Shown: positions 1 through 32,410 of the stretch, one piece after another
Layout of the letters: each line of letters opens with the position of its first letter
Position numbering within the stretch: the first letter of the stretch is position 1
Assembly: GCA_022548915.1 (NCBI GenBank)
Contig: JAKZES010000028.1
Span: forward strand, 1 to 62,292
Length of the DNA stretch: 62,292 bases
Origin: Verrucomicrobiaceae bacterium E54
GTDB lineage: Bacteria; Verrucomicrobiota; Verrucomicrobiia; Verrucomicrobiales; Akkermansiaceae
Reading direction: 5' to 3'
Made by a program: the position numbers and the translations under genes
Notes under the pieces: model-generated
The model's database searches: none
Seen by the model: the letters and a program-made list of their open reading frames with translations, nothing else
Told to the model about the DNA's origin: nothing

Positions 1-1
1 A

Positions 2-276
2 GCGACACCACCGGTTTCCCGGCCCCGCCAACAAACCGCATCCCGGTAGGGATGCCAGTGCATCCCGGTAGGGATGCCAGTGCATCCCGGAGGGATGGAA
101 GCCTGTAGCCGGTGGTCGAGCGAGGAACGAGCGACACCACCGGTTTCCCGGCCCCACCAACAAACCGCATCCCGGTAAGGATGCCAGTGCATCCCGGAGG
201 GATGAAAGCCTGTAGCCGGTGGTTGAGCGAGGCGACACCACCGGTTTCCCGGCCCCACCAACAAACCGCATCCCGG
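2..276. repeat. Three-copy palindrome-rich intergenic repeat
   Basis: A direct repeat of about 45 nt (begins GCGACACCACCGGTTTCCCG) starts at 2, 131 and 232. The DNA between copies is also patterned. The self-complementary word CATCCCGGAGGGATG and a variant with GGTA in its centre recur, the variant in tandem at about 42-90. CCGGTGGT at 109-116 and at 216-223 can pair with ACCACCGG at 136-143 and 237-244 inside the next copy, so each unit can fold into at least two hairpins. No reading frame is conserved across copies. This looks like a REP-type or compound intergenic element. Function is not known from the sequence; mRNA 3'-end protection of the leftward gene ending at 316 or a non-autonomous mobile repeat are both possible. 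Confidence 0.8.
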
Positions 277-315
277 AGGGATGGAAGCCCGGCCGGCTCG
301 CGGGACCGGCACCGC

Positions 316-23340: not shown

Positions 23341-24078
23341 ATGCGTCCCCTTCCCACCAGCCCCGAGAGCCTCGCCCCGGCCCGTCCATCGGTCGGCGCG
23401 AAGCCGGCCACTCTGGAACTCGGACCCACCCAGAGCTCCAACCAGCGGCGCCAGACCTGCCCCACCCAACGGGCCTACCCCTGGCTCCTCGGGGTCAGCA
23501 CGCTTCTCGCCGGAGTCTTCTGCTTCCTCTACATCACCAAGCCCGTCATCGGTGCCGCCGCGCCCGCCTCCGGCAGCGAGGATTCCAAGTCCGCCCTCAA
23601 CGCCCCGCCCGCCGCTGCCGCTGATGTATCATCGCCCGCAGGCCCCGGCGAAGCCCCCACCAAGCCGTCCGTGGTCGCACCCGGGGCACTCGCCGGCGAG
23701 GAAAGGAGCCCCTTCGAGGAGACCAACCTCCGCATCCAGCACATCCTCGGCGCCACCGGCCCGCAGGGCGAGGACCTCGGCCGCATCACGCTCGACGTCC
23801 CGGTGCTCTACGAAAGCGGTGTCGTCCGCTGGACCGAGGAAGACGTTGCGAAGGCACGCTCGCTGCTTTCCCGCATCCAACAACACCGACAGCGGTCCCG
23901 GGAAATTCGCGATGAAGCCGTCGGCCTGATCGCCGAATGGGACCAACTGATCATCGAATCCATCCCCGAACGAACCCTCCGCGCCGACAGCCCCACGCTT
24001 CCCGAAAACCAGGGTGCCGGAACCGCCGGTGACGCCCCCTTGAAATCCACCGACTCGATCGAGATTGATTCCCGATGA
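23341..24078 (+). CDS. Single-pass membrane protein with periplasmic region, unknown function
   Basis: A 245-aa protein with a basic Pro-rich cytoplasmic segment (about 1-45), one membrane helix (about 47-70), an Ala/Pro-rich linker and a helical domain (about 125-210). The architecture recalls platform proteins such as GspC, but no motif is diagnostic. The ATG at 23341 was preferred over a TTG 9 nt upstream. Overlaps the next gene by 4 nt. Confidence 0.6.
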   Translation: MRPLPTSPESLAPARPSVGAKPATLELGPTQSSNQRRQTCPTQRAYPWLLGVSTLLAGVFCFLYITKPVIGAAAPASGSEDSKSALNAPPAAAADVSSPAGPGEAPTKPSVVAPGALAGEERSPFEETNLRIQHILGATGPQGEDLGRITLDVPVLYESGVVRWTEEDVAKARSLLSRIQQHRQRSREIRDEAVGLIAEWDQLIIESIPERTLRADSPTLPENQGAGTAGDAPLKSTDSIEIDSR

Positions 24079-24842
24079 AAGCTGTCACCTTCCTCATTCT
24101 CGGCACGCTCCCGCTCGCCGCGCAGGACATCGCCCCGAAGGACTCGGAGCGCGATCCCGTCCTGAACGCCCTGCTGGCAGAGCCGGATGAAGAGATCGTC
24201 GAGCCCGAAGAATCGATGACGGACGACACCGACGGACCCGTGCTCGTCACCGGCAATCCGCCGGAACACTCCGACTTGCTCGAGCCCGGCACCGCCGATG
24301 GAAACTCGTTGGACGAAGGAGAATCCACATCGGTCGACCTTCTGGACGCCGGGCTGGTCGAGGCCGGGGAACCTGCCGACCCCGGCGAACGATCCGGCGT
24401 CACCATTGAGATCGAAGGAGGCACCAACACCGGGCGCTACGATGCCGATCAGGTCAAGCTCCTCGCTCCCTTCCCCGCGAAGCCTCTCATCGCCCCGCCA
24501 TCCGGCTGGAAGATCGTCCAGCCCGAGGGATTGCCGGCATTTTCCGAAACCGCGGAGCTGCCCAACGGAACCGAGCTCAACCTCTCGATCCGCCCGCACC
24601 TGCTGGTGCCCGATGCCGATGGCAGCCGCATCTTCGCCCTCTCCGAACCCGGCTTCGATGCCCGCCTCGGATACGCCCAGACCGACACCATCGGCTCGGT
24701 GCTCGCCGACACCATCCATGCGCTCGACGAGAACGGCGAACGTCTCGACGACGCCGCCCGCCGGCTGTCGGAACTCCTCGACTCCCTCCCCGCCGCCGCT
24801 CCCGAAGAAGGAGAAGAAGAACCCGAGCAAGAAGACCCATGA
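24075..24842 (+). CDS. Exported acidic protein, unknown function
   Basis: A 255-aa protein with a short signal peptide (about 1-16), a long acidic linker, then a small domain (about 125-220) and a glutamate-rich C terminus. I do not recognise it. Four-base overlaps at both ends place it in the same translational unit as its neighbours. Confidence 0.6.
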   Translation: MKAVTFLILGTLPLAAQDIAPKDSERDPVLNALLAEPDEEIVEPEESMTDDTDGPVLVTGNPPEHSDLLEPGTADGNSLDEGESTSVDLLDAGLVEAGEPADPGERSGVTIEIEGGTNTGRYDADQVKLLAPFPAKPLIAPPSGWKIVQPEGLPAFSETAELPNGTELNLSIRPHLLVPDADGSRIFALSEPGFDARLGYAQTDTIGSVLADTIHALDENGERLDDAARRLSELLDSLPAAAPEEGEEEPEQEDP

Positions 24843-25327
24843 AGCCCGCCACCCTGCCCATTCTCTGCGGTGCCGCGCTTGCCATCATGGCGGGTGCCGC
24901 CGGATCGCACTTCGCCAGCGTCAAGCAACTCGTCGCCCTCGCCGAAGCCAGCTCCCTTTCGATCGCTCCGGTCCCCACTTCCCCGGTTCCCGACGAAGCC
25001 CTGGACACCCGCTCGATGATCGCCGAACTGCGGCGACAGAACGAAGCAATGGAGGACCACCTCTCGGGCCGTCGCGACCAACCGCTGGCGGAGAGCACTC
25101 AAGCGGACTCCTCCGACCTCCACAAGGTCCTCGCCGAACTCGTCGCCATCAACCGCGAACTCCGCTCACAGATCGCCGAAACCAATCGTGACCTCATGGA
25201 ACTGCGCTTCCAGGTCGACACCCACTCCGAGCAGTTCCGGCCACTCAACACCGTCGCCGAGCCCGTCGAAGAACTGGATCCCTACGATCCCTCGATCGGC
25301 ATCCTGCCGCCGCTGGATCTGCAGTAG
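24839..25327 (+). CDS. Membrane-anchored coiled-coil protein, last gene of the filament operon
   Basis: A 162-aa protein with an N-terminal hydrophobic segment (about 5-25, anchor or signal peptide) and a coiled-coil segment (about 60-130, regular Leu/Glu/Arg heptads). The short C terminus is acidic and proline-rich. No family recognised. It closes the operon: next comes a weak hairpin, then the oppositely oriented cassette array. Confidence 0.6.
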   Translation: MKPATLPILCGAALAIMAGAAGSHFASVKQLVALAEASSLSIAPVPTSPVPDEALDTRSMIAELRRQNEAMEDHLSGRRDQPLAESTQADSSDLHKVLAELVAINRELRSQIAETNRDLMELRFQVDTHSEQFRPLNTVAEPVEELDPYDPSIGILPPLDLQ

Positions 25328-25367
25328 CGCTGCCACCGACATCCACCCGCCACCACCGCGTTGGCAT

Positions 25368-25388
25368 ACCGCCTTCTTGTTTGGCGGT
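25368..25388 (+). terminator. Weak candidate terminator after the filament operon
   Basis: ACCGCC (25368-25373) pairs with GGCGGT (25383-25388) across a 9-nt loop. No clear T-run follows, so this is only a candidate for the end of the long rightward operon. Confidence 0.3.
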
Positions 25389-25428
25389 CATGGACAGTCC
25401 TCTTGATGCCGGAGCTCCTCGGAGTCTT

Positions 25429-25559
25429 TCTCAACGTCTGAGGACAGGCGACCCCGACCCCACGAGGCGTCGGCCCTGTCCCGTTTCCCGGATTGAATCG
25501 TCCAAATCGGTCTGCGACAAGGCCGCTGTAAGGGGTCGTCCTGATCCGGCTTGTTGGGC
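25429..25559 (-). repeat. attC-like site 1 (after membrane protein gene 25574-26002)
   Basis: Read on minus, R'' GCCCAAC begins 14 nt after the stop codon of the adjacent gene. The arm AAGCCGGATCAGGACGACCCC pairs imperfectly with the complement of the far arm (GTCTGAGGACAGGCGACCCC), leaving unpaired bases on one side only as attC sites require. The site ends at ACGTTGA, where GTT marks the crossover. Confidence 0.8.
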
Positions 25560-25573
25560 AATTATTGTGCGAC

Positions 25574-26002
25574 CTAGAGAGAGCCCTGTCGGTGCGCCGC
25601 GGCCAGGTAGCCCAGCACGGAGACAAAGAGAAGGATCGCGGGGAATACCGCATAAACCGCCCAAACAGCTGAGGGAGACGACAGCTGCTCGGGGCGATTG
25701 GAGGTACCGATGAAGAACACTGCCCAAATCGCATTCAGACCCGTCGATATGGTCCAGAAGATCTTCAAGCTCTCACCTGATCGATGTGAACGAGCTGCCC
25801 AGATGTAGCCGATCCACACGGGAATTCCGATACAGTACAAGACCCCGCCAAGGCCCCAGTCAAATGGCACTCCTAGAGGGTCGTGGTGAAATCCGAGCGC
25901 TTCTAGAATGTAGGCCCCTCCGTAGAGGATTGCGAATGGTGCGACGAGTAGCGGCGGCAGGCCGACAACAAACGCCGCAATCGCGATAGCCTTGGTGCTC
26001 AT
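25574..26002 (-). CDS. Cassette-borne multi-pass membrane protein, unknown function
   Basis: A 142-aa protein with about four membrane helices (near 5-28, 45-65, 82-102 and 115-135), rich in Gly, Trp and aromatic residues between helices. No family recognised. Its stop codon is 14 nt from an attC-like R'' core, the normal cassette layout. The ATG at 26002 starts the first helix; the frame is open upstream but without features. Confidence 0.7.
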   Translation of the reverse strand: MSTKAIAIAAFVVGLPPLLVAPFAILYGGAYILEALGFHHDPLGVPFDWGLGGVLYCIGIPVWIGYIWAARSHRSGESLKIFWTISTGLNAIWAVFFIGTSNRPEQLSSPSAVWAVYAVFPAILLFVSVLGYLAAAHRQGSL

Positions 26003-26010
26003 CTGTCTCG

Positions 26011-26148
26011 TGCCACGTCTGAGGAATGGCGTCGCGACCCGATGGCGGCGGCACCGATCCCAGGGAAGGTAGAGAAGCACCAAAAACGCTTTTCAACAAG
26101 TCCGCTGTGGAGCGTCGCCATCTCCGGCCGTGGAATTGTTCGTTGGAC
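26011..26148 (-). repeat. attC-like site 2, degenerate
   Basis: Read on minus, GTCCAAC (26148-26142) lies inside the 3' end of the gene at 26093-26518. GGAGATGGCGACGC can pair with the complement of AGGAATGGCGTCGCG in the other arm. The left core reads GTGGCA instead of GTTRRRY, so the site is probably worn. It falls exactly where a site is expected between two cassette genes. Confidence 0.5.
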
Positions 26149-26518
26149 GGAGCATCAGCACTACCGCCGCAATCACCGCGTTTCCTATGATCCAAGCTGG
26201 AATCCACCATGGATCATCACCTCCACCCCAGACATCCATCGGGAGGAGGTAGAGGACGCAAACAAGGTGGTGAACCAGGCTGACGATCCAAAACGTGCGT
26301 GGGCCTACCAAGGGATAACGCTCCTTGATGCTGTAACGCACCCAACCCCACCAAATGAAGTAGCCGCTCAGCATGAGGATTAGGGTGACGAGCAGCTCCG
26401 CCACATCCACGACATTCTCGACATACTGAATTGAGGCTACGGTTACAGCAAAGCCGCCGATTCCTACGATCGCCCAGATGCCACCGAAAAAGGCCAGAAC
26501 CGTGGTGAGCGTGCGCAT
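26093..26518 (-). CDS. Cassette-borne multi-pass membrane protein, unknown function
   Basis: A 141-aa protein with four predicted membrane helices (near 5-27, 38-60, 73-95 and 105-125) and a short polar C terminus that runs into attC-like site 2. No family recognised; similar in layout, though not in sequence by eye, to the neighbouring cassette protein. The ATG at 26518 is 11 nt from the R' core of attC-like site 3. Confidence 0.7.
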   Translation of the reverse strand: MRTLTTVLAFFGGIWAIVGIGGFAVTVASIQYVENVVDVAELLVTLILMLSGYFIWWGWVRYSIKERYPLVGPRTFWIVSLVHHLVCVLYLLPMDVWGGGDDPWWIPAWIIGNAVIAAVVLMLRPTNNSTAGDGDAPQRTC

Positions 26519-26528
26519 ACTTCAGCCA

Positions 26529-26655
26529 TAGCAACGTCAAAGCTGACCCACACCCTGCCGAGAGCGCACGTCCGACTGCGCTATAAAAGGTTGAGTGGCC
26601 ATGGCGATTTCAACTCAAGGCGGGCAGGGTGTTGGTGTCCAGCGCCTTGTTCGGC
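26529..26655 (-). repeat. attC-like site 3 (overlaps the end of the cytosine methyltransferase gene)
   Basis: Read on minus, R'' GCCGAAC (26655-26649) is followed by an arm containing GCTGGACACC and AACACCCTGCC, matched by the far arm GCTGACCCACACCCTGCC (complement) with unpaired bases on one side. It ends at ACGTTGC. The methyltransferase stop (26610-26612) lies inside the site, as in many integron cassettes. It shares AACAAGGCG, CAGTCGGA and overall spacing with the site at 29440-29563. Confidence 0.85.
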
Positions 26656-27836
26656 TTGGTTGATTCCCCTAGCATCTCCGCAACGGCAAGACCAATTGCT
26701 CGCCCCAAGAGAGGTGGGACCGCGTTGCCAATCTGCTTCACAATCTGTGACCGCGTTCCACGGAACTCAAAATCGTCATCGAACGATTGCAAGCGCGCTC
26801 CCTCACGAGGTGTCAAAGCTCGATTAGCCACTGGATGGATACAGCGATTCGATGCAGGATGCACGAAGTTCACGGTGATGGTTACGCTCGGTTCGTCCGC
26901 CGCAAGACGCGAGTAGCAAGAACTGAATCCCGAAGAGATTAGGTGCTTAGGGATGCAGGAGATATTCGGGCCTGAGTGCCTGATGATCTCGAGCATTTTC
27001 GGTGTGTGGCGTGTGCTGTCGTGTAGCTTCAGGCTTCGCCGGCGTGAACGCCGTGCTCGCTGGTAGGCATTCTCTGGCGGGCGATCATACGCAGTCGCCT
27101 CCTCCCCGGATTCGATTCGTGGTAAATCTCCTATGGCATCCATCACGCTAAGTGCCTGCGGCAGTTGGTGGCCACGGCTGAAAAGCGGCAGCTCTTCCGG
27201 AAGGTGCATCCGGCTCTTGTTCCGGTGTCCGATAGTTGAACCATTGCAGGTGTGGGTATGCGAAGGGAATACGATCCCAATGCCGCGCTCTGCACCAATC
27301 AGGATGAGTCGCTCACGCTTCTGTGGCACACCAAAGTGCGCCGCGTTGAGAATCCGCCACTCGCAGTGGTATCCAGCCGACGCAAAGCACTCCTCAATCT
27401 GTTCGATCGTCTCACCATTATTGTGTGTTGCGAGACCGACGACGTTCTCCATCACGAATACAGGCGGACGGAAGTAGTTCACGAAATTGGCGTATTGCTC
27501 GAAAAGCGTGTTGCGAGGGTCATCCTCATCGCTGGATCGAAAGGGCCGGATAGATGAAAAGCCTTGGCATGGGGGGCCGCCGATCAACACACCAAGCTTA
27601 CCTCTCTTGATGCCGGTCAGCCTCTCAATATCTGAGCACGAGACGGTGCGAATGTCCTGCTTGAGCGTTCGCGCGTCCGGGTGGTTGGCCTCAAAGGTAG
27701 CCAAGCTGTCCTTAAGAATGTCAATGCCAAGCGCCGTTCGGAACTGGTCGCGGCAAGCGGCCTCGAAGCCAGCGGAGAAGCCGCCGGTGCCACAGAATAG
27801 GTCGAATACGGAATGCACGGTGGAGACTATTGTCAC
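26610..27836 (-). CDS. DNA (cytosine-5) methyltransferase of a cassette-borne RM system
   Basis: A 408-aa 5-methylcytosine methyltransferase. Motif I is DLFCGTGGFSAGFE near residue 12, motif IV GGPPCQGFS holds the catalytic cysteine near residue 89, motif VI is the MENV segment, motif VIII QKRERLILIGA, and motif X QIGNAVPPLLGRAIG near the end. The recognition domain between VIII and IX is about 120 residues. Start: GTG at 27836 lies within the left arm of the operator palindrome; a GTG six codons further in (27818) is equally good and would leave the palindrome upstream of the gene. Recognition sequence unknown. Divergent from the endonuclease gene. Confidence 0.9.
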   Translation of the reverse strand: MTIVSTVHSVFDLFCGTGGFSAGFEAACRDQFRTALGIDILKDSLATFEANHPDARTLKQDIRTVSCSDIERLTGIKRGKLGVLIGGPPCQGFSSIRPFRSSDEDDPRNTLFEQYANFVNYFRPPVFVMENVVGLATHNNGETIEQIEECFASAGYHCEWRILNAAHFGVPQKRERLILIGAERGIGIVFPSHTHTCNGSTIGHRNKSRMHLPEELPLFSRGHQLPQALSVMDAIGDLPRIESGEEATAYDRPPENAYQRARRSRRRSLKLHDSTRHTPKMLEIIRHSGPNISCIPKHLISSGFSSCYSRLAADEPSVTITVNFVHPASNRCIHPVANRALTPREGARLQSFDDDFEFRGTRSQIVKQIGNAVPPLLGRAIGLAVAEMLGESTKPNKALDTNTLPALS

Positions 27837-27871
27837 GGTGACAGCGAGGTGTCAAGCGTGACAATAGTCTC
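27823..27871. promoter_or_regulatory. Nested palindromic operator between methyltransferase and endonuclease
   Basis: GAGACTATTGTCACG at 27823-27837 is repeated inverted and perfectly at 27857-27871 (15-bp arms, 19-nt spacer). Inside sit two smaller palindromes built from TGTCA/TGACA half-sites: TGTCACGGTGACA at 27831-27843 and TGTCAAGCGTGACA at 27851-27864. Paired operators like this are typical C-boxes bound by controller proteins of RM systems. Here the only helix-turn-helix protein of the module is the endonuclease itself, so autoregulation is inferred. Confidence 0.75.
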
Positions 27872-27873
27872 AG

Positions 27874-28776
27874 GTGCCCGATCCATCTGCCGACAAGATT
27901 CTACAAGCCCTCGTGAAGGTTCTCCGGGTCGAGAGGGAGGCCAAAGGCCTGAACTACGAGGAACTAGGGGCTGTCACCGGACTCCATCGAACCACGCTAG
28001 GGTTGTATGAACGTGGTGAGAGGTGTCCGACAATCGAGGCAGCCCTCCAGATCGCGGAAGCGCTTGGCATGCCGCTCTCATCGCTAATCAGAAAGGCCGA
28101 GGAATCTGCCGAGTCTGGGCGCGTCAGCGAGGAGTTCATCACTCGTCGGGAGGTGCCCCTTGGGAACTTCCGAAACGGCTCCGAACTTCGAAGCTGCCTC
28201 GGCCTGTCTCCCGATGCCGTTAGAGCTGCGATTCTGGACTGCTACAACACGTTGGATACGATCGATCAACAATTGGTCGCCCACGGCGCGGAGCCAATGG
28301 CTCGACTCGTGGAATTAGCCAACCTGTCATCAATGATTGGCAACCTTCTCGGGGCTGGTCTAGCGTCGGCCTCAAACGGTCTCTATCGAAGGAATAGACC
28401 ACACGCCTATCCTGACCTGATCCCTCAAAATCCCGACTACAACGACCTGGAGATCAAGGTGGCTCTGGAGAAGAATAAGCCAAAAGGACATCTTCCAAAG
28501 GCAGGGAACTACATCACATTCCGCTACGTTCTCTGCAATGATTCGGGCCAGTTCATCTCCGGCAAGGAGAACCGCGGGCTTCGTGTCTTCATCTGGGAGG
28601 TGAAGGTGGGGCGAATTAGAGAGTCCGACTTCGACTTGAGCAATACCGAGGGGGATTCTGGAAAAACGGCCGTAATCAAGACCGCGGTGTTCAACGCTAT
28701 GCCCTTGATTTACTTCGATCCCGACTTGCTCCCGTATGCGCGTCGTCGGGACCGTCGCTATCCGGGGTTCAATTAA
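27874..28776 (+). CDS. Restriction endonuclease with N-terminal XRE-type helix-turn-helix domain
   Basis: A 300-aa protein from a GTG start. Residues about 8-70 form a Cro/C1-type helix-turn-helix (LRVEREAKGLNYEELGAVTG, then TTLGLYERGERCP) like RM controller proteins. The C-terminal part holds a PD-(D/E)xK candidate, PDYNDLEIK near residue 187, with a second ExK (WEVK) further on. The tail with NTEGDSGKTAVIKT reminds me of ScaI-type endonucleases, but I am unsure. Divergent from the cytosine methyltransferase, with the operator between. The stop lies 2 nt from the R' core of attC-like site 4, so both RM genes sit in one cassette. A fused controller and nuclease in one chain is unusual. Confidence 0.75.
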   Translation: MPDPSADKILQALVKVLRVEREAKGLNYEELGAVTGLHRTTLGLYERGERCPTIEAALQIAEALGMPLSSLIRKAEESAESGRVSEEFITRREVPLGNFRNGSELRSCLGLSPDAVRAAILDCYNTLDTIDQQLVAHGAEPMARLVELANLSSMIGNLLGAGLASASNGLYRRNRPHAYPDLIPQNPDYNDLEIKVALEKNKPKGHLPKAGNYITFRYVLCNDSGQFISGKENRGLRVFIWEVKVGRIRESDFDLSNTEGDSGKTAVIKTAVFNAMPLIYFDPDLLPYARRRDRRYPGFN

Positions 28777-28778
28777 TT

Positions 28779-28875
28779 GCCGAACGACTAAATCCTCCTA
28801 CCGATGACAGCGAAAACCGACATCTCTACACCCCCGAATCCGCCGCTGGCAGCGGTTAGGAGCGATGCCTTAGGC
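28779..28875 (-). repeat. attC-like site 4 (short type)
   Basis: On minus, R'' reads GCCTAAG (28875-28869, last base off consensus). The arm CTCCTAACCGCTGCCAGCG pairs with the complement of the far arm CTCCTACCGATGACAGCG, leaving one extrahelical A, the feature that sets attC polarity. R' is GTTCGGC (28785-28779), the exact complement of the R'' of site 3, so it marks the start of the RM cassette. Confidence 0.7.
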
Positions 28876-28895
28876 TATTCTTGTGTTGGTTCGTG

Positions 28896-29411
28896 CTATG
28901 GATTCACGGCGGAACCCTTGTGGATGTAGCTCCAAAACACGGGATCGAGATTCCCACCGTCGAGCCTACTGACGATCACCTGATCCTGAGGACCTGTGAA
29001 GTCGTCTTCCTGAATAATCACTTGAATAGTGTAAGGTGCACCGTCGTAGTCGAAACGGCCTGTAAGACCGGTAAGGTGATAGCCAGCCCATGGTGAGCAC
29101 CTGTCAATATCAGCGACAACTTCGTGGTCATAGTCGCCTAGTTCGAAAGTGATGCGGCCCTCTCTTGTGATGGCTAGGTGGTGACCATCGTCTGAGATCC
29201 AGTCTCCGGTGATCCTTCGCCTGAAAGGCAGATCCACGAAATACCACCTGCGAAGCTCCTCAGCCGGCTTCGTCATCGCGAGCACGGCCTCATCCGCGAC
29301 TCCAAAGGTGATGCCTCTCCAAATCCGGAGGTAGTAAAAGCCGCCGTAAATCAACATGATTCCAAGTAGGATGGCGCCATACTTGGCGGATCTCTTGAGG
29401 CCTCGTCTCAT
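28896..29411 (-). CDS. Cassette-borne membrane-anchored protein, unknown function
   Basis: A 171-aa protein with an N-terminal basic segment and one membrane helix (about 10-30), then a soluble beta-rich domain. No family recognised. ATG at 29411 (MRRGLK) gives a typical anchor; an ATG eight codons upstream at 29435 is also open, close to the R' end of attC-like site 5. The stop is followed about 20 nt later by attC-like site 4. Confidence 0.65.
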   Translation of the reverse strand: MRRGLKRSAKYGAILLGIMLIYGGFYYLRIWRGITFGVADEAVLAMTKPAEELRRWYFVDLPFRRRITGDWISDDGHHLAITREGRITFELGDYDHEVVADIDRCSPWAGYHLTGLTGRFDYDGAPYTIQVIIQEDDFTGPQDQVIVSRLDGGNLDPVFWSYIHKGSAVNP

Positions 29412-29439
29412 GGTCCATGGAGAATCACGCTCCATTTCT

Positions 29440-29563
29440 GCCGACGTCGAAGTCCTTTCACACCTGCCCGAGGGCGATGCTCCGACTGTGGGTTGAGGGT
29501 GGAATGGTCATGACAGGTTGAACTCGCGGCGGGGCAGGTGTTGAGAGCGACGCCTTGTTGTGC
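29440..29563 (-). repeat. attC-like site 5 (after the gene at 29571-30044)
   Basis: On minus, R'' GCACAAC begins 7 nt after the stop codon. ACACCTGCCC in one arm is perfectly complementary to GGGCAGGTGT in the other. The R' core reads GTCGGC rather than GTT plus RRRY, a one-base departure. Clearly related in sequence to the site at 26529-26655. Confidence 0.8.
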
Positions 29564-29570
29564 ATTTGAT

Positions 29571-30044
29571 TCAGAGGTAGTCGAAAAAGCGGACCCACCA
29601 CGTGAGCTTGTTGTCGAAGGGTTCGTTCTTCCCGTCGTAAAGTTCTTCGAGTTCGTCGGCATCTACGAACGTGAACCCTCGATCCTCAATGTATCGCTTC
29701 GCCGCCATCACGTTGGTCTTGGTACCTCCGCCATCATCGAGATCACTTCCGAAGAGTGTGAACATCCTCCCGAAGTTCGAGAACCTGAAGGAGAAGAGGT
29801 AGCTGAGTGCTCCGACTCCCTTCTGCCGGTCGTAGTAGCGATCATCGAGGTATCCCACATCAGTGAGGAAAGATGCATCCTGGACATTTCGATCGACGTC
29901 GAGCTTGATGCCCAATATCCGCTCGAGCTCAGGCAGCATTGCGTCGATTTCCTTTATCGCCGTTCCCGGCGCAGAACTTGGCGGAAACTCCCAGTGACCC
30001 TGCTCGTCTGCCTCAAGCAGAATACGTTTGGTCTCTGGATTCAT
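29571..30044 (-). CDS. Cassette-borne small soluble protein, unknown function
   Basis: A 157-aa acidic protein with no signal peptide or membrane segment, rich in Asp, Phe and Tyr. No family recognised. The ATG at 30044 was chosen over one four codons upstream because it begins a more charged, conserved-looking stretch; either fits. The cassette boundary GCACAAC at 30051-30057 is the exact complement of this cassette's start and matches its own R'' core. Confidence 0.6.
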   Translation of the reverse strand: MNPETKRILLEADEQGHWEFPPSSAPGTAIKEIDAMLPELERILGIKLDVDRNVQDASFLTDVGYLDDRYYDRQKGVGALSYLFSFRFSNFGRMFTLFGSDLDDGGGTKTNVMAAKRYIEDRGFTFVDADELEELYDGKNEPFDNKLTWWVRFFDYL

Positions 30045-30057
30045 ATTCCTGCACAAC

Positions 30058-30678
30058 AGTGTATTGTATCGATTCGAGGTATTCCGGTAGTAGCAACTGG
30101 TTGATTCCGGGTCAATCGCCTGGCCGCTTTGACCCCATCACCCTGACAGTCAATGGCTTGCGTGGCGAGACATTCGGTCCCGGTGGGTCCAGGCCTTGCA
30201 GTGGGTGGCCTGGATACCCCGCTGCGGGGTATCCAGGTGATACCCCGAATCGTGTTTTGAGGGCAAAAACACGAGCGTGGAACATTCGTGGAACATCGCC
30301 CGGCCACCCAGATGGGAGCGTGAGTCCTCGAATTTACGGGCGATTCCGGGGATTTTCATTGGTTCGGTCGATTGTTGAGGTTGGCTTGAGGTCTGGTTCT
30401 CCAAGGCTTGTTTTCGTTGATGTGCTCGCATGAACGCATTTTGTGGTGTTCAAATGAGTGGGGCCGGGGCCTGCATTTGAACATTTCCAGCCTCCGGACC
30501 ACCCTCCCCGGGATGACCTCTCCCCTCGAAGCGAGGCCTCCTTCTGCAAGCGCCCCCCGGTATCGACACTCGTCAAACAGCTGGCCTACTCCCCGGTTCC
30601 TCGGGGGATGCCCCCAGGGTGACAAAGTGTCGGCATTCCCGCCTTGATTGCGGCACCTCCATCCACTACCCGATCTGC
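30058..30678. other. Gene-poor region right of the cassette array, with a strong hairpin
   Basis: No convincing gene in 620 nt; short frames on both strands lack conserved features and none resembles an integrase. CCTGGATACCCCG (30209-30221) forms a perfect 13-bp stem with CGGGGTATCCAGG (30225-30237), loop CTG. No T-run follows. This is where an attI site or integrase gene would be expected if the array were complete; I see neither. The hairpin could be a terminator, a REP element or a recombination site. Confidence 0.5.
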
Positions 30679-31401
30679 GTGGTTCCGCATCCGCTCCTCA
30701 GGCACCGCTACGACCGCCTGGAAGACAAGTCCGTCTTCGTCAATGGTCTGTTCGACGCCGGTGCCGAACACTACGACCCGGTCGTCAACTGGGGCTTCCT
30801 CTGCCAGGGCAATTCCTACCGCAAGTGGGCGCTCCAACGGCACGGACTCGAGCCCGGCATGCGGCTCCTCGATGTCGCCTGCGGTACCGGCCTGGTGGCC
30901 GTGGCCGCCGCCGAGATCCTCGGTTCGGCCGATGCCATTTCCTGCGTCGATCCCAGCGAGGGCATGCTCGCCCTGGCCCGGCGGAAGCTTGAGGCGCATT
31001 TCATCCAGGCCGGGGCCGAGGCCCTTCCAGTCGCCGACGCATCCTTCGACTTCCTCTCGGTCGGCTACGCCTTGCGCCATTTCGGCAGTCTTGAAGCCGC
31101 CTTCCGCGAGTTCCGCCGGGTGCTGAAACCGGGTGGCAAGGTCCTGCTGCTCGAAGCCACCAAGCCCGAGAATCCGGTCGGTGCCGCGATGTTCCGCTTC
31201 TACTTCGGCGGGCTCTATCCCTTCCTCACGCGGCTTTTCACCCGCAGCGACCACGCCGAGCGGATGATGCAGTATTTCTGGGAAACCATGGATGCCTGCG
31301 TCCGGCCCGAAACCATCCTGGAAGAGCTTCGGAAGGCGGGCTTCGAGAAGGTCGAGCGAACCCGGCTGGCCGGAATTTTCAGCGAGTACAGCGCCGAATA
31401 G
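30679..31401 (+). CDS. UbiE/MenG-like class I SAM-dependent methyltransferase
   Basis: About 240 aa. The N terminus (EDKSVFVNGLFDAGAEHYD) resembles UbiE/MenG, the C-methyltransferases of ubiquinone and menaquinone synthesis. SAM motif I is LLDVACGTGLVAV near residue 60, followed by an acidic motif (CVDPSEGMLALA) and GYALRHF where UbiE has GLRN. The C-terminal family segment is shorter, so another small-molecule substrate is possible. Start is uncertain: GTG at 30679 fits the family N terminus; a GTG 20 codons upstream at 30619 is in frame. Confidence 0.7.
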   Translation: MVPHPLLRHRYDRLEDKSVFVNGLFDAGAEHYDPVVNWGFLCQGNSYRKWALQRHGLEPGMRLLDVACGTGLVAVAAAEILGSADAISCVDPSEGMLALARRKLEAHFIQAGAEALPVADASFDFLSVGYALRHFGSLEAAFREFRRVLKPGGKVLLLEATKPENPVGAAMFRFYFGGLYPFLTRLFTRSDHAERMMQYFWETMDACVRPETILEELRKAGFEKVERTRLAGIFSEYSAE

Positions 31402-31408
31402 GCCCCCC

Positions 31409-32410
31409 TCAACCCGCCACCCGTTGGTAATCGGCCGGCTCCAGGCAGCAGGGATCGGCAGCGACCCAGTGGCCGGGATCGATCTCCACCAGCGGAAGTT
31501 CCCTGCCGATCGTTTCCTCGTAGCGCGGATGGTCGATCCGGTGCCCGAAGGCACTCCCCTTCGGCGGATCGATCGGCGACGGGACATCCCCCTCCAGCAA
31601 CACCCGCTCGACCTTCATCGCCGGATCGGGGTGAGGGATGGCCGAGAGCAGCGCCTTGGTGTAGGCGTGCTTGGGTTCGCGGTAGATCGTCTCGGAGTCG
31701 GCCATCTCGACGATCTTTCCGAGATACATCACGGCGACCCGGTCGGAGATGTGCTTCACCACCGCCAGGTCGTGGGCGATGAAAAGGTATGAGAGATCCA
31801 TCTCCCGCTGGAGTTCGAGCAGCAGGTTGAGCACCTGGGACTGGACCGAGACGTCGAGCGCCGAAACCGGCTCGTCGCAGATGATCAGCTTCGGGTTCAG
31901 GGCCAGCGCGCGGGCGATGCCGATGCGCTGGCGCTGCCCGCCGGAAAACTCGAAGGGATAGCGGTCGGCACTCGCGGCCTGCAGTCCCACCCGGTCGAGA
32001 ATCTCGTCCACCCGCCTGCGCCGCTCGGCCCGGGAGATCCCGCCGTGGATGATGTACGGCTCCTCCAGTATCTCGCGCACGCTGTGGCGGGCGTTGAGCG
32101 ACTCCACCGGGTCCTGGAACACCATCTGCATGTCCCGCCTCAGGGGGCGCATCGCCGCCGTTCCGAGGTGCGTCACATCGACGCCCTCGAACTCGATCCG
32201 CCCCGCCGTCGGCTTGAGCAGGCGGACGATGGCCTTGCCCAGGGTGGACTTGCCGCAGCCCGACTCTCCCACCAGCCCGAGCGTCTCGCCCTGGCGGATG
32301 CCCAGCGAGACCCCATCGACCGCCCGCACCGCGCCGGTCTGGCGCATCAGCACCCCGCCATGCACGGGAAAGTGAACCTTGAGGTCCTCGACCTTCAGCA
32401 GATCACTCAT
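31409..32410 (-). CDS. Oligopeptide ABC transporter ATPase (OppF-like)
   Basis: A 333-aa ATPase: Walker [10 protein letters not shown] near residue 48, signature [15 protein letters not shown], Walker B LIICDEP, His switch AHD. The C-terminal oligopeptide-transporter tail is present ([12 protein letters not shown]), but the cysteines that bind an iron-sulfur cluster in many OppF/DppF proteins are replaced ([13 protein letters not shown]). Overlaps the OppD-like gene by 4 nt. Last gene of a leftward operon of five. Confidence 0.88.

Follow-up and report, generated by a model that had tools for sequence, protein, structure and literature searches.

An integron is described as having one attI site (PMC3607928), which immediately adjoins the integrase gene intI (PMC9668308). 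Cassette clusters with attC sites and no integrase are defined as clusters of attC sites lacking integron integrases (CALINs), and attI sites outside class 1 are not detected and are poorly described (PMC9024848). CALINs have been explained by off-target insertion, by loss of intI and degradation of integrons, and by rearrangement, and their cassettes are considered usable in trans (PMC8618304, PMC9024848, PMC9668308). The subject of this report is an array of five cassettes at 25429..30057 of contig C176 in the 5.9-Mb draft genome (255 contigs) of Verrucomicrobiaceae bacterium E54, the whole stretch analysed (62,292 nucleotides) being referred to as the window. The cassette array is genuine. 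On the minus strand it starts at an attI-type platform, homologous to attI in sequence, and is more than a CALIN. It is probably one of several arrays of a chromosomal integron with dispersed attI platforms, most likely served in trans, at least formerly.

The region is interpreted in the minus direction because the array genes lie mainly on the minus strand, each gene being followed by its attC site. The head of the array comprises the following.

30055..30071, minus strand: attI-type core CGATACAATACACT|GTT, with the crossover at the G at 30057
30058..30297, minus strand: type-1 attI platform, about 240 bp long (its outer edge is approximate) and presumed to serve as a recombination and promoter module

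The first cassette begins with GTTGTGC at 30057, directly after CGATACAATACACT, and its two ends match at 7 of 7 positions. When up to two mismatches are allowed, the 17-mer CGATACAATACACTGTT is found at just two places in the genome, the array head and the attI site of contig C182. The latter contig carries a full integron, in which intI is followed by cassettes directed away from it up to the contig end. The window site and the C182 attI agree at 33 of 38 bases (expectation value, E, 6e-9), and this homology of 33-38 bp is to an attI located where attI is expected, between intI and the first cassette; product-like junctions are observed. Alignment of the window platform with C182 by BLAST is limited to the last 33 bp, and two blocks of the platform, -236..-155 and -54..0, align with an intI-less platform of the genome designated G002. 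It might be supposed that IntI had inserted the cassettes off target into an ordinary genomic site, since such attG sites have been described (PMC12901181, PMC12444791). This is very unlikely for the window, as the site preceding cassette 1 is homologous to attI and is no chance GTT site, and its 17-mer is limited to the window and the C182 attI. A single terminator-like site in the platform is within chance. A box at -379 resembles that of LexA, and with two mismatches it is not put forward as one.

The attC sites were scored with a covariance model (R1) built from nine attC sites, eight from C182 and one from contig C211, with none taken from the window. The arms of the training sequences covary: of 15 arm pairs, 13 show changes on both sides in one or more sequences, and the covariation score is reached by none of 500 shuffles. 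The sites in the window, with their R1 scores, are as follows.

29439..29563, minus strand: attC 1, 62.2 bits, E 1.5e-13
28779..28896, minus strand: attC 2, either decayed or missing, 15.1 bits once filters are turned off, not recovered in the standard search
26529..26655, minus strand: attC 3, 73.3 bits, E 2.8e-16
26010..26136, minus strand: attC 4, weak, 32.9 bits, E 2.6e-6
25429..25559, minus strand: attC 5, array end, 76.7 bits, E 4.1e-17

An initial annotation of this DNA had reported five sites of one polarity, and had proposed a covariance-model search in which fewer than two sites would sink the array; the model derived from the organism's own genome returns four. The shared polarity stands and is minus. 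A plus-strand orientation was dismissed, since R1 places the sites on the minus strand and so do the bases left unpaired on the R'' side of the arms. Four of the five sites are solid, and the remaining one (28779-28896) is near noise, reaching E 0.005 solely with filters off over 4.8 kb. The sites have paired arms, with unpaired bases on the R'' side, as in attC sites (four of the five being recovered independently by R1). When each site is folded as a single strand, as the annotation had recommended, the energies are ordinary (z -0.2 to -1.8), and energy alone therefore could not reveal the sites. Across the 62-kb window R1 has no match up to E 10 other than the four minus-strand array sites, and Rfam has no match in the window at gathering thresholds. 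The sequence sharing noted between two sites is confirmed as 17 nt at 25434 and 26015 (88%), and attC 5 is 91% identical over 122 bp to an attC of contig C193. Similar sites occur elsewhere in the genome, where the annotation had advised a search. R1 finds at least 16 at E<=1, among them one each on C21, C22 and C193, with 150 out of 1839 first-look candidates scored (the limit in genome-wide model searches was 150 per genome). The lower content of guanine plus cytosine relative to both sides likewise holds: the array is at 0.561 and its flanks are at 0.646 and 0.651, and no non-overlapping stretch of equal length, sampled every 100 bp, falls below 0.630. No tandem repeats were found at 24000-32000. 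The contig start carries a direct repeat (window 1-283), of which 1-183 resembles 130-283 at 81%.

Alternatively, the locus could consist of ordinary genes with palindromic intergenic repeats, or could be an assembly artefact, and the fragmented state of the draft and the unremarkable folding energies might be taken in favour of this. Such an explanation is scarcely credible given that matches to an independent model reach E 4e-17, that in 404 kb from 51 unrelated loci the same model finds nothing at E 0.1 or below, and that the same arrangement is found in G002, a genome assembled as a single contig. In 13 flank-control loci R1 produced a single marginal match, of 15.1 bits, which is the score of the fifth site.

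The annotation had seen no integrase, and contig C176 indeed has no match to the integrase family and no tblastn match with eight IntI proteins, so that an intI remnant beside the array was rejected as well. The window is thus not a complete integron, in which intI would adjoin attI. Elsewhere in the genome, C182, C198 and C211 encode three proteins that pass the cut-off for TIGR02249, the integron integrase family. IntI of C182 is a 462-amino-acid open frame that appears intact, with a putative RHRY-type active site whose residues were assigned by eye. Its closest counterpart among seven other IntI proteins compared is that of G001:C56, with 64% identity and an attI core that is identical save for one base. 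TGTTC-N4-GAACA boxes with at most one mismatch lie near six of the seven intI loci scanned, with none in L073, which is what SOS control would lead one to expect. The boxes are at position 979 in L011, 2772 in L085, 2913 in L074 and 3685 in L109, and are upstream of intI in L009 and L076. In L148 (G015:C24), an intI that has an attI-like site and cassettes next to it is spread over different frames, and its product is probably inactive. A cassette with matched ends in the intact integron of C182 (L009 16404-17672) appears, by reading of the sequence, to contain an IS91-like transposase gene.

On the explanation favoured here, the five-cassette minus-strand array sits on an attI platform of its own (about 30055-30297) and has no integrase encoded in cis. 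The cassettes would have been inserted at the window attI by attC x attI recombination, most likely catalysed in trans, at present or in the past, by the IntI protein of C182, the contig whose attI shares this core. The platform is presumed to carry a promoter from which the first cassette would be expressed.

Platforms without intI recur in the genus. An alignment of attI sites separates two kinds of module. The GATATC kind, about 165 bp long, has a core resembling AATAAAnACT|GTT, and its three boxes, similar to GATATC, are near -165, -115 and -40. The window kind, with boxes GTTCCACG and GAAACCACG, measures about 280 bp in C182, G014:C22, G014:C65 and G002 at 2.34 Mb, and about 240 bp in the window. 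A model of the GATATC kind (R2) was built from seven attI sites, five beside intI and two intI-less ones from C22 and C193, and these seven are matches by construction. In 18 genomes of the genus, R2 has at least 19 matches at E<=1e-3; five adjoin intI, all of them training sequences, and at least 14 do not, at least 12 of which are new to the model. In the same 18 genomes a 16-mer of the window kind has eight matches with at most one mismatch, two beside intI and six not, compared with one match for a reversed control pattern. Since these genomes hold 19 intI matches (E<=1e-40, some partial, in 10 genomes) against at least 14 and 6 intI-less platforms, the latter are described as many and not as most. 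In the wider family, matches of the GATATC kind (E<=1e-3) occur in 10 of 60 genomes, counted irrespective of intI.

Seventeen of the intI-less platforms, each with 3.5 to 32 kb of upstream DNA, were inspected by tblastn with the eight IntI proteins; G008:C26, G006:C37 and G008:C14 were left out, the last having no intI match and an alignment that ends short of the crossover. For 16 of the 17 there was no match at E<=0.01. The R'' core of the first attC is an exact complement of the cassette start at nine of these platforms and agrees at 6 of 7 positions at three, and one has a decayed attC. In intI-bearing attI sites the end match holds by construction, since they were located by it. Two of the recurring platforms lie in the E54 genome itself, on C22 (L107 7460-8700) and C193 (L108 6143-7009), where attI-like sequence is followed by cassettes with no intI; the C193 cassette resembles a toxin-antitoxin pair, by sequence reading only. 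Window-type platforms at L220 7695 (G002:C1:2344681) and L221 6046 (G014:C65) have no attC match downstream and are possibly empty, or their cassette may have lost its attC.

The genome G002 has three intI and three intI-less platforms. A stretch of 667 bp with one mismatch (99.85% identity) is common to an intI-less array at 1.28 Mb and an intI-bearing array at 3.26 Mb, and the latter array has a second copy at 99.7%. The likeness spans the GTT of one crossover to the next GTT, and outside these limits it falls to 0.20-0.47 per 30-base bin. In addition, the attI-adjacent cassette at 1.28 Mb has a counterpart of 88% identity in a different intI-bearing array, and here too the likeness stops at the crossovers. 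The simplest account of near-identical cassettes bounded by crossovers is that IntI acts at platforms which lack their own intI. It is an even question whether the integron of this genus is a distributed system as a whole, with two kinds of attI module scattered about, many without intI, and with integrases at one or a few loci that fill the platforms and exchange cassettes in trans. Also in G002, a 1.6-kb insertion with identical frames of 118 and 355 amino acids recurs in arrays with and without intI (L074, L075 and L141).

Several results weigh against a platform served in trans. Two of the five attC sites in the window are weak (26010-26136 and 28779-28896), and an exact complement between the cassette start and R'' is present in only two of the five cassettes (cassette 1 and the restriction-modification cassette) compared with eight of eight in C182. 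A search of 29900-30620 gave no sigma70-like promoter. The 122-bp attC likeness with C193 is all that the window array has in common, in cassette proteins or cassette DNA, with the loci compared in its own genome; exchange is thus not observed within this genome, and trans action at the window locus is something that we infer. Among the 17 platforms inspected, four have no attC match, and G014:C47 has a weak tblastn match with IntI (59 amino acids, E 0.002). The latter falls within a long gene, in an alternative frame of low complexity, and was taken as chance, not as intI. Finally, the stretch from -60 to -430 resembles the intI-attI spacer of C182 as one block (1 of 300 shuffles as good), and when it is split into two halves the likeness is no better than that of shuffles (68 and 62 of 300).

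The usual explanation of a CALIN is that a once complete integron lost intI by deletion and that the remaining array is inert. Such a history for the window array is possible, though somewhat doubtful. The two weak attC sites, taken with matched ends in two of five cassettes and mismatched ends in the other three, mean that the array may be a relic, and the resemblance of the whole -60..-430 stretch to the C182 spacer points the same way. Moreover, some intI-less platforms of G001 and G002 have upstream sequence like that found beyond intI, as a repeat-mediated deletion would leave, and this sequence looks like dispersed repeats. Against an inert relic, the ends of cassette 1 and of the restriction-modification cassette are intact, from which we infer that capture continued until fairly recently. 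In addition, several platforms with and without intI cease to be homologous at similar positions, close to or at the first box: -164 and -162 (G014), -156 (G001), and about -280 for C182, G014:C22, G014:C65 and G002 at 2.34 Mb. Independent random deletions would give no reason to expect such common end points. The exceptions are G002 at 1.28 Mb and at 1.95 Mb, where homology extends through repeats to about -640 and about -556 respectively, G001:C13 (to -314) and G014:C70. As a general account of how platforms might have become separated from their integrase, deletion of intI between flanking repeats is suggestive in G001 and G002 and is not claimed; the stretches look like dispersed repeats, and a third locus, L011, also matches. 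In G002, repeats upstream of intI-less attI sites (L140 5510-6184, L075 14099-14792 and L074 1121-1489) resemble sequence beyond intI of intact integrons, and could either permit intI loss by recombination or be dispersed repeats.

Comparison with a relative indicates that the array sits at a junction which differs between species. Among 57 genomes searched, the closest copy of the left-flank gene (75%) is in G014. There a distance of 13.5 kb separates the flanking pilus gene from the opp operon, and the interval contains ordinary high-GC genes and no attC match. A gene from this interval is on another contig in the E54 genome. The annotation had held that the array idea would fail if relatives kept the same gene order without gain or loss of cassettes; G014, the only relative for which a detailed comparison was made, has these flanking genes and no cassettes.

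The cassettes and their genes are arranged as follows.

29445..30056, minus strand: cassette 1, matching ends (GTTGTGC/GCACAAC)
29571..30044, minus strand: gene of cassette 1, 157 amino acids, no Pfam family, 42 relatives besides itself
28785..29444, minus strand: cassette 2, mismatched ends
28896..29435, minus strand: gene of cassette 2, 179 amino acids, no Pfam or NCBIfam match
26535..28784, minus strand: cassette 3, restriction-modification-like, matching ends (GTTCGGC/GCCGAAC)
27874..28776, plus strand, against the array direction: controller-type helix-turn-helix (HTH) domain fused to a PD..ExK nuclease-like domain, 300 amino acids, HTH_3 1.1e-12
26610..27836, minus strand: DNA cytosine-5 methyltransferase, PF00145 1.1e-63, PADLOC MTase_II 1.7e-101
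26016..26534, minus strand: cassette 4, mismatched ends, gene at 26093-26518 with no Pfam or NCBIfam match
25435..26015, minus strand: cassette 5, mismatched ends, gene at 25574-26002 with 2 relatives besides itself

Both exact core complements reported by the annotation, those of cassettes 1 and 3, are confirmed, and the ends of the other three cassettes agree at 3 or 4 of 7 positions. The window array is genuine but appears partly decayed, as matched ends occur in two of its five cassettes versus all eight in C182. A Pfam search gave no match for the genes of the four cassettes other than cassette 3.

The cytosine-5 methyltransferase of cassette 3 is of the kind expected in type II restriction-modification systems. 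The partner protein, a putative nuclease, has a PADLOC REase_II match (6.6e-4), and in its nuclease-like C-terminal domain P180-D181..E193-x-K195 is invariant across 17 aligned sequences. A structure prediction with a mean predicted local distance difference test score (pLDDT) of 86.6 gave, in Foldseek, C.BclI at the N-terminus and a weak match to EcoRV (probability 0.97-0.99, E about 7e-3 to 1e-2, template modelling score 0.26-0.28). The divergent methyltransferase and HTH-nuclease genes are separated by a perfect 14-bp inverted repeat, GAGACTATTGTCAC/GTGACAATAGTCTC (27823-27836 and 27858-27871), which is a probable controller operator. The system is like type II restriction-modification systems with a controller of the C.BclI kind in its controller HTH, its cytosine methyltransferase and its inverted repeat between divergent genes, and differs from them in that the controller and the nuclease-like domain form one polypeptide and the pair lies within one cassette. 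The HTH-nuclease gene is widespread, the best 120 of 1665 relatives having 97 to 53% identity and one of them being labelled Vibrio cholerae. These relatives were dismissed as a sign of cassette travel, since none of 51 loci in named genomes has an R1 match up to E 0.1, in a search with a model that is tuned to its own clade and may miss other kinds of attC; the pair therefore occurs outside such arrays too.

Should attI platforms prove to be modules that can be separated from intI and served in trans, a portion of CALINs may be live sites of expression, and counts of degraded integrons would need revising. Each genome would then offer several copies of attI for the study of its evolution, and the movement of cassettes inside a single cell could be measured. 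The platforms provide a usable anatomy for attI outside class 1. In a distributed system, one SOS-type response could rearrange several expression sites together, and a platform could move or persist without its enzyme. Literature searches, which covered open-access papers and not subscription papers or preprints, turned up no paper that describes attI platforms dispersed in this way.

Among known systems, class 1 integrons with a deleted or truncated intI1 keep attI1 and cassettes, and are truncations of one mobile element. Here, in contrast, diverged platforms are spread over the chromosomes of one genus. The Delta-attI-type cassettes of mobile integrons are similar in having attI-derived sites that are apart from intI and usable by IntI1, and differ in being partial attI sites inside the arrays of mobile integrons, as opposed to dispersed chromosomal platforms (PMC12901181). 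In Xanthomonas, intI is at one locus and cassette clusters (CALINs) are elsewhere on the same chromosome, as in the present case; the available portion of that account does not mention an attI module at the head of the clusters (PMC12444791). With at least two attC sites and no intI nearby, and with cassettes that may serve in trans (PMC9668308, PMC12444791), the window array belongs with the CALINs, as it had been labelled. The label is incomplete since the head of the array is homologous to attI, three intI are present elsewhere in the genome, and intI-less platforms recur in the genus. The array shares with sedentary chromosomal integrons the architecture of attC, the attI|GTT junction, the order of gene and then attC, and the TGTTC-N4-GAACA boxes near most of the intI loci scanned, and it is distinguished from them by platforms which, in this genus, sit apart from any intI.

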